A stretch of 64,000 nucleotides of DNA from an uncultured Tolumonas sp. (lineage in GTDB: Bacteria; Pseudomonadota; Gammaproteobacteria; Enterobacterales; Aeromonadaceae), in contig NZ_OY829945.1 of assembly GCF_963556105.2 (NCBI RefSeq), forward strand, positions 1,000,524 to 1,064,523, read 5' to 3'. The notes under the pieces are model-generated. The model worked only from the letters and a program-made list of their open reading frames with translations, did not search any database and was not told where the DNA came from. Shown here piece after piece: positions 54,917 through 58,972 of this stretch (positions within the stretch are counted from its first letter, which is position 1; each line of letters starts with the position of its first letter). Both the position numbers and the translations under genes were made by a program.

Positions 54917-55495
54917 TTAACCCGCCAGACCCGCAAAGCCGGCAAATGACAATGCCAGAATGCCGGCAGTGATAAAGTTGAGTGGGACACCACGGAATAA
55001 ATCAGGTAACTGCGCGCGTTCCTGACGTTCACGCAAGCCGGAAAACAACACCATCACCAGCGAATAACCCAACGCCGAGCTGAACGAGAAGAACAGACAT
55101 TTAATGAAGCTCAGGTCTTCTTCGATCACCAGCAACGCCACCCCCAGCACCGCACAGTTGGTGGTGATCAACGGCAGGAAGATCCCCAGTGTGCGATACA
55201 ACTCAGGGCTGTATTTGGCGACAAACAGTTCGGTTAACTGCACCAGCGATGCAATAACCATGATGAAAGAAATAAGACGCAGATAACCGAGCCCGAGCGG
55301 GTCTAACACGGCGTAGTTCAGCACCCAGCTGACACAGCTCGATACCGTAATAACGAAGGTAGTGGCCATCGACATGCCAATGGCAGATTCGATTTTGTTG
55401 GTCACCCCCATGAATGAGCACAGCCCCAAAAAGCGGGACAGCACCACATTATTCACCAGCCCATTGGCCAGTATGATTAGCAGCAGTTCATGCAT
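54917..55495 (-). CDS. rnfA: Rnf complex membrane subunit RnfA
   Basis: A 192-residue inner-membrane protein with six helices (LLLIILANGLVNNVVLSRFL at the start, TTNCAVLGVALLVI in the middle). It is the first gene of the operon, which in nif systems drives reverse electron flow to reduce ferredoxin or flavodoxin for nitrogenase. ATG at 55495 is chosen because family members start MHELLLI and AGAGG lies upstream; ten more in-frame codons are rejected. It is divergent from nifL. Confidence 0.94.
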   Translation of the reverse strand: MHELLLIILANGLVNNVVLSRFLGLCSFMGVTNKIESAIGMSMATTFVITVSSCVSWVLNYAVLDPLGLGYLRLISFIMVIASLVQLTELFVAKYSPELYRTLGIFLPLITTNCAVLGVALLVIEEDLSFIKCLFFSFSSALGYSLVMVLFSGLRERQERAQLPDLFRGVPLNFITAGILALSFAGFAGLAG

Positions 55496-55532
55496 TCCGA
55501 TTGCCTCTTCTAAACCCAGATGCAAGGGAAAA

Positions 55533-55549
55533 TGCGAAACTTATGCCAA
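55533..55549 (-). promoter_or_regulatory. Sigma-54 promoter of rnfA
   Basis: On the minus strand TTGGCATAAGTTTCGCA keeps GG-N10-GC and matches TTGGCA and -GCA of the consensus. It lies 38 bases before the rnfA ATG. A one-mismatch NifA site (TGC-N10-ACA, 55624-55639) lies about 75 bases upstream of it. Confidence 0.75.
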
Positions 55550-55553
55550 AAAT

Positions 55554-55569
55554 TGTGTGCTGCATCACA
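55554..55569. promoter_or_regulatory. NifA upstream activator site
   Basis: TGTGTGCTGCATCACA fits TGT-N10-ACA exactly. It lies right behind the rnfA sigma-54 promoter, too close for classical activation of it, but about 170 bases upstream of the nifL sigma-54 promoter, a normal distance for an enhancer. Confidence 0.55.
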
Positions 55570-55735
55570 GTGAGGCGTTGCCCCATAACGAGGCATTTGG
55601 ATCTGACAAAACCGGACTTTGATTGCGTTAAAGCCGACAGCACGCCGCTATTTTTGTCGTTATAAACCTAATTTTTGTATGGTTTTGTTCTGGATATGAC
55701 AAGCGAGCCAGTTGATCGCGTCAAATTGATTTTTT

Positions 55736-55751
55736 CGGAACAACTCTTGCT
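55736..55751 (+). promoter_or_regulatory. Sigma-54 promoter of nifLA
   Basis: CGGAACAACTCTTGCT has GG-N10-GC spacing and a perfect TTGCT -12 half; the -24 half is CGGAAC against TGGCAC. It lies 105 bases before the nifL ATG. No NtrC-type GCACY-N5-GGTGC site was found in the 361-base rnfA-nifL gap (55496-55856). Confidence 0.6.
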
Positions 55752-55806
55752 TTTATTAAACAGGTCTGGCGACAACCACATCACAGATTCATCAACACCG
55801 ACAAAT

Positions 55807-55822
55807 TGTCTGATTGCTCACA
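55807..55822. promoter_or_regulatory. Second NifA-type site, in the nifL leader
   Basis: TGTCTGATTGCTCACA fits TGT-N10-ACA exactly. It is downstream of the predicted nifL start point and about 260 bases upstream of the rnfA -24 element, so it could act on rnfA or repress nifL. Confidence 0.45.
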
Positions 55823-55856
55823 GCTGGCGAATAATCGCGAGAAGAAAGGAGAGGAT

Positions 55857-57383
55857 ATGAACATCCTGCAAAACTATATCCCTGAGACCACCGGAGCGGT
55901 CTGCATCAACAGTGCCAGCTTACAGCAAATGCTCTCTGTGCTGCCGATGGAACTGTTTTATGGTGTGGTTGAGCAATCGTCCGTCGGGATATCGATCACC
56001 GACCCGAAAGCCAACATTCTGTATTGTAATACCGCTTTTTGTCGCACCACCGGCTATAAGCGCGGTGAGCTGCAATATCGAAACCACAATATTCTGGCCA
56101 GCCAGCAAACCCCGAAATCGCGTTATCAGGCGATGTGGCATCAATTATCTCAACATCAACCGTGGACTGGCCGGCTGATCAACAAACGTAAAGATGGCTC
56201 TTTATATCTGGCGGAAGTGACCGTCACGCCGGTGGTCAATAGTGAAGGCCAGATCACGCACTATCTGGGCATGCACCGTGATATCAGCGAACAATTTGCG
56301 CTGGAACAGCGGGTGCATAACCAAAAAGCGATGATTGAAGCGGTGCTCGATGCCGCCCCAACCGCTATTGCCGTGCTTGATGAACATCATAAGGTCGTTC
56401 TCGACAACCTGACCTACAAAACCTTACGCACTGACCTGCGAGGTAACGAACCTTACACTGCACTGGGTTTTACACCGGGAGCCCAACGCCCGGATCGTGA
56501 CCAGCTGTGGCCACTGACCATCCGTGGTCGTCAGCGTTGGTTCAGCATTCTGATCCAACCACTATCTGAACTGAATGAAGAGGCGAGCCTTTATTTTGGT
56601 GACGGGAAACGACCTTGTTCATTATTGATGATCAGCGATCAGACTGAACGTCGACAGCAAATCGAACAATCGCGTCTGGAACAACTGCGTGTGCAGGTGG
56701 AAGAACAAACCCTGTTCTCTGCTATTCGGGAAACGCTGGATGTGGCGATGGTACAAAGTCAGGCGCCACTCAACATGCTGCAAGCTGCGTTACGTCTGGA
56801 AGCCAACCCTGACAGCCGCGCGGCGATTGCGATCCAGACTGCCTTAGATGCCGGTCACGAAGCATTACAACGACTGGAACAATATCGCCCGGCTATTAAG
56901 GTGGAAGAACCGACCCAGTTTGAGCTGATGAGTCTGTTTGCTGATCTGCACGACATGCTGACACTACGTTTAGAGCATCTCGATGTGCTGATGCAACTGG
57001 ACATCGCCGCTGATCTACCGGAACTGTTTACCCAACGTACCCGCTTATTAACGGCATTGAGTCTGTTGTTTGATCGCGCTTGTCAGGCGGTCACCGGCCA
57101 ATCCGCCGGGCAACTCAAATTATGTGCCTATCAGAACGAACAGGAACTTTGTCTGGAAGTACACGACAGCGGGCAAGCACCTGCTGTCACCGCGACCCAC
57201 CGCTTATTACAACCACAAACCGACAATGGTGGGAAGCGTAACGACACTATCGAATTAGGTTTTGCACAAAATATCGTTAACGATCATAGAGGGGTGATCG
57301 AAGTGGAAACGAGTGATTTAGGGGGAAGTTGTATCCGGCTCAGGCTGCCTCTGTGCGCCATTATCAGGGAGGATAAAAAATGA
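55857..57383 (+). CDS. nifL: Nitrogen fixation negative regulator NifL
   Basis: Redox- and nitrogen-sensing partner that inhibits NifA. The 508-residue protein has a first PAS domain (about 30-135, EQSSVGISITDPKANILYCN, QTPKSRYQAMW, GQITHYLGMHRDIS) that binds FAD in the family, a second PAS (about 150-260, AVLDAAPTAIAVLDEHHKVV), a coiled central part and a C-terminal histidine-kinase-like region (DRACQAVTGQ, IVNDHRGVIEVET, GGSCIRLRLPL). AAGGAGAGG precedes ATG; 17 upstream codons are rejected. Its stop overlaps the nifA start by four bases (ATGA), so the two are made together. Confidence 0.93.
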   Translation: MNILQNYIPETTGAVCINSASLQQMLSVLPMELFYGVVEQSSVGISITDPKANILYCNTAFCRTTGYKRGELQYRNHNILASQQTPKSRYQAMWHQLSQHQPWTGRLINKRKDGSLYLAEVTVTPVVNSEGQITHYLGMHRDISEQFALEQRVHNQKAMIEAVLDAAPTAIAVLDEHHKVVLDNLTYKTLRTDLRGNEPYTALGFTPGAQRPDRDQLWPLTIRGRQRWFSILIQPLSELNEEASLYFGDGKRPCSLLMISDQTERRQQIEQSRLEQLRVQVEEQTLFSAIRETLDVAMVQSQAPLNMLQAALRLEANPDSRAAIAIQTALDAGHEALQRLEQYRPAIKVEEPTQFELMSLFADLHDMLTLRLEHLDVLMQLDIAADLPELFTQRTRLLTALSLLFDRACQAVTGQSAGQLKLCAYQNEQELCLEVHDSGQAPAVTATHRLLQPQTDNGGKRNDTIELGFAQNIVNDHRGVIEVETSDLGGSCIRLRLPLCAIIREDKK

Positions 57384-58972
57384 ATACGCACGCTAGCCTA
57401 TTTTCCGCCAATGGAAACAAAAGCCTCAGCATGCAGCAGCAGCTGAATGCGTTACACCAGATCAGTATCGTGCTGAGTCGCTCACTCGATCTGGAAGAAA
57501 CGTTACGCAGTACTTTGCAAACGCTGAGTGATATCGCACACATGCAATATGGTCTGGTTTCTCTGTTTGATCACAACCGGAGCGCCTTGTTTATCCAGGC
57601 TGTACACGGCATTGATGCGGAAGTGGTAAAAGATGTGAAAGGCGTTCGCTACCGTATGGGCGAGGGCATCATGGGGACCGTAATGCATCAGGGCCATGCG
57701 CTGGTGATCCCGCGGGTGGCGGATGATCCGCGGTTTCTTGATCGTTTGAATTTGTATGATTATGCGCTGCCATTCATCTGTGTGCCGATCCCCGGTGCGG
57801 ACAGCCAGCCGATTGGGGTGTTAGCTGCACAACCGCAGTCATTGGATGAAACCGAGCTGCCAGCCCGCACTCGTTTTATGGAAATGGTGGCGAACCTGAT
57901 CGGGCAGACTGTACGTCTGATTGGTAAGGTACATACCGAACATGAAGCGATAAAAACGGAGCGTGACAGTTTGCGCCGTAAAGTTCGTAGCCAATATGGT
58001 TTCGACAATATGGTTGGTCAGACACAAGCGATGCGGCAGATCTTTGATTCCATTCGTCAGGTGGCGAAATGGGATACTACCGTGCTGGTGCGGGGTGAAA
58101 GTGGTACCGGTAAAGAGTTAATTGCCACCGCGATCCATTACAACTCACCACGGGTGAACGGGCCGTTTGTCAAACTGAACTGTGCGGCGCTGCCGGATAC
58201 GCTGTTGGAAAGTGAGCTGTTCGGGCATGAAAAAGGGGCTTTTACCGGTGCGGTGAAACAGCGGAAAGGCCGTTTTGAAATGGCCGATGGTGGCACACTG
58301 TTCCTGGATGAAATCGGCGAAATCAGTGCTTCATTCCAAGCCAAATTACTGCGTATCTTGCAGGAAGGGGAAATGGAGCGCGTCGGTGGCACTGACACCC
58401 TGAAAGTGGATGTACGCATTGTCACCGCGACCAACCGCAATCTGGAAGATGAAGTGCGCAAAGGCAATTTCCGTGAAGACCTCTATTATCGTCTGAACGT
58501 TATGCCGATCCAGCTGCCGCCACTGCGCGAGCGTCTGGAAGACATTCCTGAACTGGCTAAATTCTTAGTGCAAAAACTGTCAGAAAAACAGGGGCGGGAA
58601 ATTAAAATCAGCGATGGTGCGATCCGTATGCTGATGGGGCATGACTGGCCGGGCAACGTGCGTGAACTGGAAAACTGTCTGGAGCGTGCCACCATCATGT
58701 CAGAAACTGGCTTGATCGACCGTGATGTGGTGTTGTTTCATGCTAACGAACGTCCACAAACTGGTTTCAGTGCACCTGTAGCGGTCAGCAAACCGGCCAT
58801 TGCCACCGATGTTGATTTCACTGATCCACAATTGGATGAACGTCAACGTCTGATTGCCGCGTTAGAACGTTGTGGCTGGGTGCAAGCCAAAGCGGCGCGT
58901 TTATTAGGCATGACACCACGCCAGATTGCCTATCGTATTCAGATCATGAATATCAATATGCGGCGGATGTAA
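57380..58972 (+). CDS. nifA: nif-specific transcriptional activator NifA
   Basis: Sigma-54-dependent enhancer-binding activator of nif genes. The 530-residue protein has an N-terminal GAF domain (about 35-185), an AAA+ domain with RGESGTGKELIATAIH (Walker A, about 238), the sigma-54 contact loop GAFTGA (about 286) and LFLDEIGEIS (Walker B), and a C-terminal FIS-type helix-turn-helix (AKAARLLGMTPRQIAYRIQI). The linker before the DNA-binding part has no CxxxxC oxygen-sensing motif, as expected for NifA proteins controlled by NifL. Confidence 0.96.
   Translation: MNTHASLFSANGNKSLSMQQQLNALHQISIVLSRSLDLEETLRSTLQTLSDIAHMQYGLVSLFDHNRSALFIQAVHGIDAEVVKDVKGVRYRMGEGIMGTVMHQGHALVIPRVADDPRFLDRLNLYDYALPFICVPIPGADSQPIGVLAAQPQSLDETELPARTRFMEMVANLIGQTVRLIGKVHTEHEAIKTERDSLRRKVRSQYGFDNMVGQTQAMRQIFDSIRQVAKWDTTVLVRGESGTGKELIATAIHYNSPRVNGPFVKLNCAALPDTLLESELFGHEKGAFTGAVKQRKGRFEMADGGTLFLDEIGEISASFQAKLLRILQEGEMERVGGTDTLKVDVRIVTATNRNLEDEVRKGNFREDLYYRLNVMPIQLPPLRERLEDIPELAKFLVQKLSEKQGREIKISDGAIRMLMGHDWPGNVRELENCLERATIMSETGLIDRDVVLFHANERPQTGFSAPVAVSKPAIATDVDFTDPQLDERQRLIAALERCGWVQAKAARLLGMTPRQIAYRIQIMNINMRRM

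Follow-up and report, generated by a model that had tools for sequence, protein, structure and literature searches.

A conserved, predicted sigma-54 control region between the divergent rnfA and nifLA genes of Tolumonas: a variant of the Klebsiella nifF-nifLA layout

In an uncultured Tolumonas sp., the rnf operon and nifLA are read in opposite directions from a gap of 361 bp, which raises the question of which regulators act on the two operons and from which side of the gap each of them works. The gap lies within a stretch of 64,000 nucleotides that was analysed as a whole (the window). The start codon of rnfA is at 55495 on the minus strand and that of nifL at 55857 on the plus strand, and rnfA, nifL, and nifA were all identified above the NCBIfam cut-offs (Table 1). 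A divergent control region of comparable layout is that of Klebsiella nifF-nifLA, reportedly described by Minchin, Austin, and Dixon in 1988 and 1989. According to the available text of two sources, Klebsiella nifLA is activated by NtrC (PMC3723869, PMC8381380).

Table 1. Genes and predicted control elements at the rnfA-nifLA gap (positions in the window)
Feature	Position	Strand	Basis
rnfA, first gene of the divergent rnf operon	54917..55495	-	TIGR01943, 259.1 bits (cut-off 229.3)
rnfA sigma-54 promoter candidate, TGGCATAAGTTTCGCA	55534..55549	-	2 mismatches to TGGCAC-N5-TTGCW
Site A, CRP-like, also exact TGT-N10-ACA, TGTGTGCTGCATCACA	55554..55569	.	TGT/ACA perfect in 10/10 Tolumonas
NtrC-type dyad, proposed nifLA enhancer, TGCCCCATAACGAGGCA	55579..55595	.	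best aligned NtrC position in 10 Tolumonas
Site D, degenerate NifA-like TGC-N10-ACA	55624..55639	.	TG and ACA in 10/10 Tolumonas
Conserved block running into site B, TTTTTGTATGGTTTTGT	55672..55688	.	near invariant in Tolumonas
Site B, exact TGT-N10-ACA	55686..55701	.	perfect in 10/10 Tolumonas
nifL sigma-54 promoter candidate, CGGAACAACTCTTGCT	55736..55751	+	2 mismatches to TGGCAC-N5-TTGCW
Leader element containing site E (55807-55822), ACAAATTGTCTGATTGCTCACA	55801..55822	+	TGT/ACA in 10/10 Tolumonas
nifL	55857..57383	+	TIGR02938, 340.1 bits (cut-off 242.45)
nifA	57380..58972	+	TIGR01817, 713.3 bits (cut-off 528.85)

The gap was aligned across ten Tolumonas genomes, with nifL identity down to 72%, and two loci of g5, another genus of the same family. 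T. osonensis DSM 22975, a harmless species that can be cultured, also has the locus. Loci L013 and L014 duplicate L037 and L041, and each was counted once; genome G010 was represented by L036 because its loci L006 and L032 lack the gap, and G008, with a partial nifL match (70% complete), stands outside the ten. Measured against the sigma-54 consensus (TGGCAC-N5-TTGCW), the GG/GC bases of the rnfA box are kept in all ten Tolumonas (1-2 mismatches) and in both g5 loci, and those of the nifL box likewise in all ten (2-3 mismatches) and in both g5 loci. Thus, -24/-12 boxes are present on both sides of the gap in 10/10 Tolumonas, which is the promoter arrangement of the nifF-nifLA type. The original prediction had proposed two divergent sigma-54 candidates, both of which are present, although the rnfA box starts at 55534 rather than 55533. 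It had also proposed a common rnfA/nifLA control region, and this is borne out by the gap comparison, in which the GG/GC and TGT/ACA bases are conserved in relatives (10/10 Tolumonas). What separates the two operons is therefore a conserved, divergent control region of the sigma-54 type with two predicted promoters.

Three exact NifA-type motifs (TGT-N10-ACA) lie in the gap, namely sites A, B, and E. Those at A and E had been predicted, whereas the third, site B, had been missed; the predicted one-mismatch site, D, is also present, and its third base is T in none of the ten Tolumonas. The motif shows no enrichment over the whole window (20 found, 22.0 expected), so that the letters alone prove little, and the chance of at least one exact copy in a comparable gap is about 10%. 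A pattern combining a NifA site with a strict sigma-54 box gave 10 matches in 11 genomes of the genus, two of them in the genome studied here, vs. 6 for the reversed control, and was set aside. In the aligned gap, TGT/ACA is perfect at A, B, and E throughout Tolumonas, and three such positions appeared in 0 of 5000 column permutations (mean 0.0012). Because the spacers of A and E are largely invariant too (7/10 and 8/10 columns, respectively), conservation at the genus level says less for these two sites. At site B, the core is invariant (6/6 columns) and the spacer variable (1/10 columns invariant), as would be expected of a protein site.

As for the activation of nifLA, the original prediction saw no NtrC site, and this is contradicted by the dyad that adjoins the rnfA promoter on the partner's side of the gap. 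It has 2-3 mismatches out of 12 in all ten Tolumonas (mean 2.8, vs. 4.3 at the next-best gap position; column-permutation P = 0.0022), although in the window itself it is weak (3/12 mismatches); variants in other species read TGCACCATAACAATGCA and TGCCCCATTAAGGTGCG. The dyad lies 150 bp above the nifL GG in the window and 139-151 bp across the ten Tolumonas. The genome studied here has an ntrC gene above the family cut-off, approximately 1.8 kb from glnA, and upstream of glnA CGCACCATAAAAGCGCA and two more dyads, with 3-4 mismatches, precede a sigma-54 box with one mismatch. These dyads are built like the one in the rnfA-nifL gap; the glnA region also holds one isolated 4-mismatch dyad far away. 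The GC-N11-GC core is that described for P. stutzeri NtrC sites in the accessible part of PMC8443478. In f19, which behaves as a Klebsiella-like family, the best dyad stands 148-150 bp above the nifL GG in 11/20 nifF-nifLA loci, whereas in the remaining nifF-type loci it stands at other steps or is weaker or ambiguous. Relatives thus differ in this respect: the dyads of g5 are all ambiguous, with 3-4 mismatches, and several f19 loci (L121-L125) have none better than 4 mismatches.

Site A had been regarded as the NifA site on the nifL side. Its centre lies 15.5 bp from the rnfA GG; relative to the nifL GG, the site is 175.5 bp upstream. Nothing in the two g5 loci aligns with it, and within this comparison it is confined to Tolumonas. 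The CRP core is TGTGA-N6-TCACA, from which site A departs by a mean of only 1.0/10 positions in the ten Tolumonas (permutation P = 0.0004). TGT/ACA agrees with NifA as well, and since the site keeps both TGTG and TCACA, it is compatible with CRP and NifA alike. Site A was rejected as a nifL enhancer, as it is CRP-like and adjoins the rnfA box and as site B is better placed for nifL. A role in modulating rnfA as a CRP-type site is more probable than one as a NifA enhancer, and the site might place rnfA under carbon control. A perfect CRP-type core, TGTGATTCCTGTCACA, also occurs in one rnfA-nifL gap of f19 (L114), approximately 204 bp before nifL, a position that differs from that of site A.

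In nine Tolumonas, including that of the window, site B precedes the nifL GG by 43.5 bp; in G007, where approximately one helical turn has been lost, it does so by 33.5 bp. Although NifA sites are usually found approximately 100 bp above the start, the shorter spacing matches that of a nif promoter in the same genus: in 7/7 Mo-type nifE loci (L136-L142, the partial L147 being excluded), the promoter GG is invariant and an exact NifA site precedes it by 42.5 bp. By its predicted function, site B is the NifA site best placed for nifL and for nifLA autoactivation, and because its spacing is nifE-like, it probably gives nifLA positive feedback. At 147.5 bp from the rnfA GG, it would also be placed to serve rnfA. 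The block that runs into site B is identical in the g5 locus L012, where no exact NifA site comes after it, and T-rich TGTGTGG blocks resembling it are found in other families.

Site E is part of a longer element, ACAAWTTGT-N10-ACA, in the nifL leader. Among 22 leaders (one to three per genus), in which TGT and ACA are present by selection and the preceding six bases are unselected, those six bases fit ACAAWT in 20, with L121 and L130 departing. The ACAAWT block, which lies outside the TGT-N10-ACA consensus, is thus nearly as conserved as TGT/ACA itself, in contrast to the spacer, most of which differs from genus to genus. Of the 16 occurrences of the full element in 11 Tolumonas genomes, 10 are in the nifL leaders of the 10 locus-bearing genomes. 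A NifA site in the nifL leader is found in Tolumonas, g5, g74 (L058 and L059, where it is the sole exact NifA site), and 24/24 f19 loci, opposite either rnfA or nifF; the element is absent in L110 and L112. The leader site is also present in the nifF-nifL gap of a Pantoea sp. At-9b plasmid, in which the divergent gene is annotated as a flavodoxin. These f19 sites agree with Klebsiella, in which the NifA site of nifF was reportedly located in the nifLA leader by Minchin et al. in 1988. The leader site stands 75.5-77.5 bp from the nifL GG in 31/39 rows, 67.5-68.5 bp from it in g74, and 86.5 bp from it in L122, the latter two being approximately one turn off the main value. As this distance is nearly fixed, a role for the partner alone is insufficient as an explanation.

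Nonetheless, the occurrence of NifA sites follows the divergent partner. The nifL gene was found in 24/394 genomes drawn from the order, 21/369 from the class, and 24/295 from family f19 (the genome studied here is in the order and class samples, and G156 in the order and f19 samples). It is preceded by divergent rnfA in 21/24 order loci, including our own, and in f19 its partner is nifF in 20/24 and rnfA in 4/24 loci. Outside Tolumonas, at least one exact NifA site within 400 bp was present in 58/61 gaps with a divergent partner vs. 3/10 without one (Fisher 9.5e-6, ignoring relatedness; chance approx. 0.10 per gap), with L103 and L105 counted as site-less, although pairs occur further out. 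It appears, therefore, that the sites serve mainly the partner. Indeed, no exact NifA site was found in the 400 bp above nifL in the Serratia proteamaculans and Rahnella aceris plasmids, whose nifL lacks a divergent partner; these two related plasmids make up the no-partner control in this clade. Exceptions to the partner rule are L053 and L055, which have NifA sites without rnfA found within the locus, and L091. In genus g10, a NifA pair 39 bp apart lies above nifL in both L053 and L054, and the 597-bp gap of L054 has a second 39-bp pair near rnfA, i.e., a separate pair per operon. Given these exceptions and the pair near each promoter in L054, nifLA may have its own NifA sites elsewhere. Among the 14 class-level rnfA-divergent loci, nine have two exact NifA sites 39-42 bp apart in the gap, two have a 33-bp pair, two have a single site, and one, with a gap of 78 bp, has none. 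Such central twin sites 39-42 bp apart between the promoters are absent from the window gap, where successive exact sites are 132 and 121 bp apart.

Spacing provides a second link with the partner. Distances between the leader site and the divergent promoter's GG (20 values at the genus level) cluster near 192, 234.5, 246, 257, and 267 bp, with a best period of 10.7 bp (R 0.79; periods 6 to 25 scanned). For the distance between the nifL GG and its best NtrC dyad, 29 values, among which ties and weak dyads were included, have a best period of 10.6 bp (R 0.755). Neither R was reached in 2000 uniform draws, six control motifs gave R values of 0.20-0.50, and 300 shuffles gave at most 0.42. Both distances thus shift in steps of approximately 10.7 bp, which means that the helical face is kept. 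The values are not independent, as relatives share spacing by descent, and when each cluster contributes a single value (from hand-compiled genus-level lists that omit ties, NtrC dyads with 4 mismatches, and unclear promoters), the phase P is 0.0085 for the leader site and 0.15 for NtrC. In the 29-value NtrC set, L125, L130, L134, and L135 are excluded because their nifL promoter is unclear, and the L124 promoter was set to -113 by hand. The nifL starts of relatives were set by a ribosome-site rule and hand choice, so that distances to the ATG are approximate, whereas site-to-GG distances do not depend on the starts. The presence, conservation, spacing, and phase of the sites are direct observations from this comparison.

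The most probable reading, which we consider likely, is that the two operons share a crossed and divergent sigma-54 control region like that of Klebsiella nifF-nifLA, in which the rnf operon occupies the place of nifF. Upon nitrogen limitation, phosphorylated NtrC would bind the dyad and, acting across the gap, switch on the nifL promoter at a distance of 150 bp. The NifA that is then produced from nifLA would bind the leader element, which lies inside the nifLA transcript, together with site B, and activate rnfA in the opposite direction, such that electron supply to nitrogenase would follow NifA; NifA at site B would raise nifLA further. The crossed layout of the original prediction is therein supported as far as the service of the leader site to the divergent gene is concerned. 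The idea appears to hold with NtrC, and not NifA at 55554, serving nifL and with leader-bound NifA serving rnfA. Protein binding at each site is predicted from sequence, as are the directions of the effects, the autoactivation, and the role of CRP.

It might be argued instead that the leader element autoregulates nifLA, with NifA bound approximately 77 bp below the nifL GG acting as a downstream enhancer of, or a roadblock on, its own operon. The near-constant distance to the nifL GG, with deviations in g74 and L122 of approximately one turn, is what such a role would produce; however, the leader site goes with the divergent partner, it is absent in the two partner-less plasmids, and its spacing from the partner promoter likewise changes in 10.7-bp steps, which makes this explanation doubtful. 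The autoregulatory and partner roles can, in fact, be combined. In a speculative extension that is just as doubtful, the leader element would be a two-way, helix-phased device in which NifA, bound within the transcribed leader of nifLA, activates the divergent electron-supply operon while nifLA traffic and bound NifA limit each other. If true, one piece of DNA would balance regulator against electron supply, and would do so in several families, whether the partner is nifF or the unrelated rnfA. That the conserved leader acts instead within the nifL messenger, as an element of RNA or translation, is very improbable: ACAAWT, which is no part of the NifA consensus, would be accounted for, but TGT and ACA are fixed on either side of a spacer that mostly differs from genus to genus, an Rfam search of 55300-56000 gave no match, and L110 and L112 do without the element.

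The remaining alternatives concern the other sites. An arrangement in which site A is the NifA enhancer of nifL and E that of rnfA, so that nifLA is under NifA alone, would make use of the exact, genus-wide motif at A. The NtrC dyad speaks against it, as do the CRP-like sequence of A, its restriction to Tolumonas in the comparison, its place beside the rnfA box, and the better position of B for nifL, and there is little reason to expect it. Nor is it at all likely that site B is the main rnfA enhancer, in the manner of the central sites of other families, and the leader site a relic. The distance of B from the rnfA GG would suit such a function, and class-level loci with central pairs show that rnfA can diverge from nifL where a leader site is not needed; however, in Tolumonas-like lineages the leader element is more widely kept than B, and in g74 it is the only exact site.

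The preferred reading, crossed NtrC and NifA control, places the window gap as a variant of the Klebsiella nifF-nifLA layout, one that carries a further, central NifA site, and not as a new kind of system; it is classed as a variant because the partner is rnfA and not nifF. Both have divergent sigma-54 promoters and NtrC sites for nifLA on the partner's side, and the f19 relatives of nifF type share the leader NifA element, whereas Tolumonas differs in its partner, in site B, and in the CRP-like site A. In P. stutzeri A1501, rnfA and nifLA are likewise divergent, both are predicted NifA-sigma-54 operons, and putative NtrC sites are given at nifA and rnfA; a leader element is not reported in the accessible portions of these sources (PMC2820453, PMC8443478). 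In Azoarcus BH72, according to the part of PMC3916325 that is available, NifA sites are predicted in tandem ahead of rnfA1 and nifL and resemble the central pairs of the class-level loci, whereas Tolumonas, in place of a pair, combines a single exact central site with one in the leader. More generally, as far as the accessible text of PMC6490700 goes, most NifL groups have rnf in divergent orientation to nifLA, and rnf1 is controlled by NifA in A. vinelandii, P. stutzeri, and A. olearius. A. vinelandii resembles Tolumonas in having rnf1 beside nifLA and under NifA control (PMC6490700, PMC8219145). However, its nifLA is not autoactivated by NifA, as stated in the available part of PMC8219145, unlike the autoactivation proposed here. 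Within the titles and abstracts on Tolumonas and nifA, nothing on nif control was found, and the literature searched, with most subscription journals outside its reach, yielded no account of a phased leader element.

These comparisons suggest that the crossed NtrC/NifA layout of Klebsiella nifF-nifLA reaches beyond that group and that it tolerates a swap of the partner, from the flavodoxin gene nifF to the rnf complex, with helical phase kept between families. For any attempt to uncouple the supply of regulator from that of electrons in nitrogen-fixing bacteria, the exact bases named here are candidate targets for mutation.

The same genome has further nif features. A Mo nitrogenase nifH is located at C2:948914, and contig C1 (L087:3581-7883 and L088:402-7322) encodes AnfD and AnfK of an iron-only nitrogenase above the cut-offs, a VnfK-like protein just below its cut-off (854.5 vs. 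873.95), two further NifH genes, a second NifE-family gene, and a NifA-like activator. Approximately 450 bp before nifU, at L084:11040-11100 (C2, approx. 961058), a perfect sigma-54 box, TGGCACCTCATTTGCA, is preceded by two exact NifA sites and followed by a perfect CRP-type core, TGTGATCACGGTCACA.
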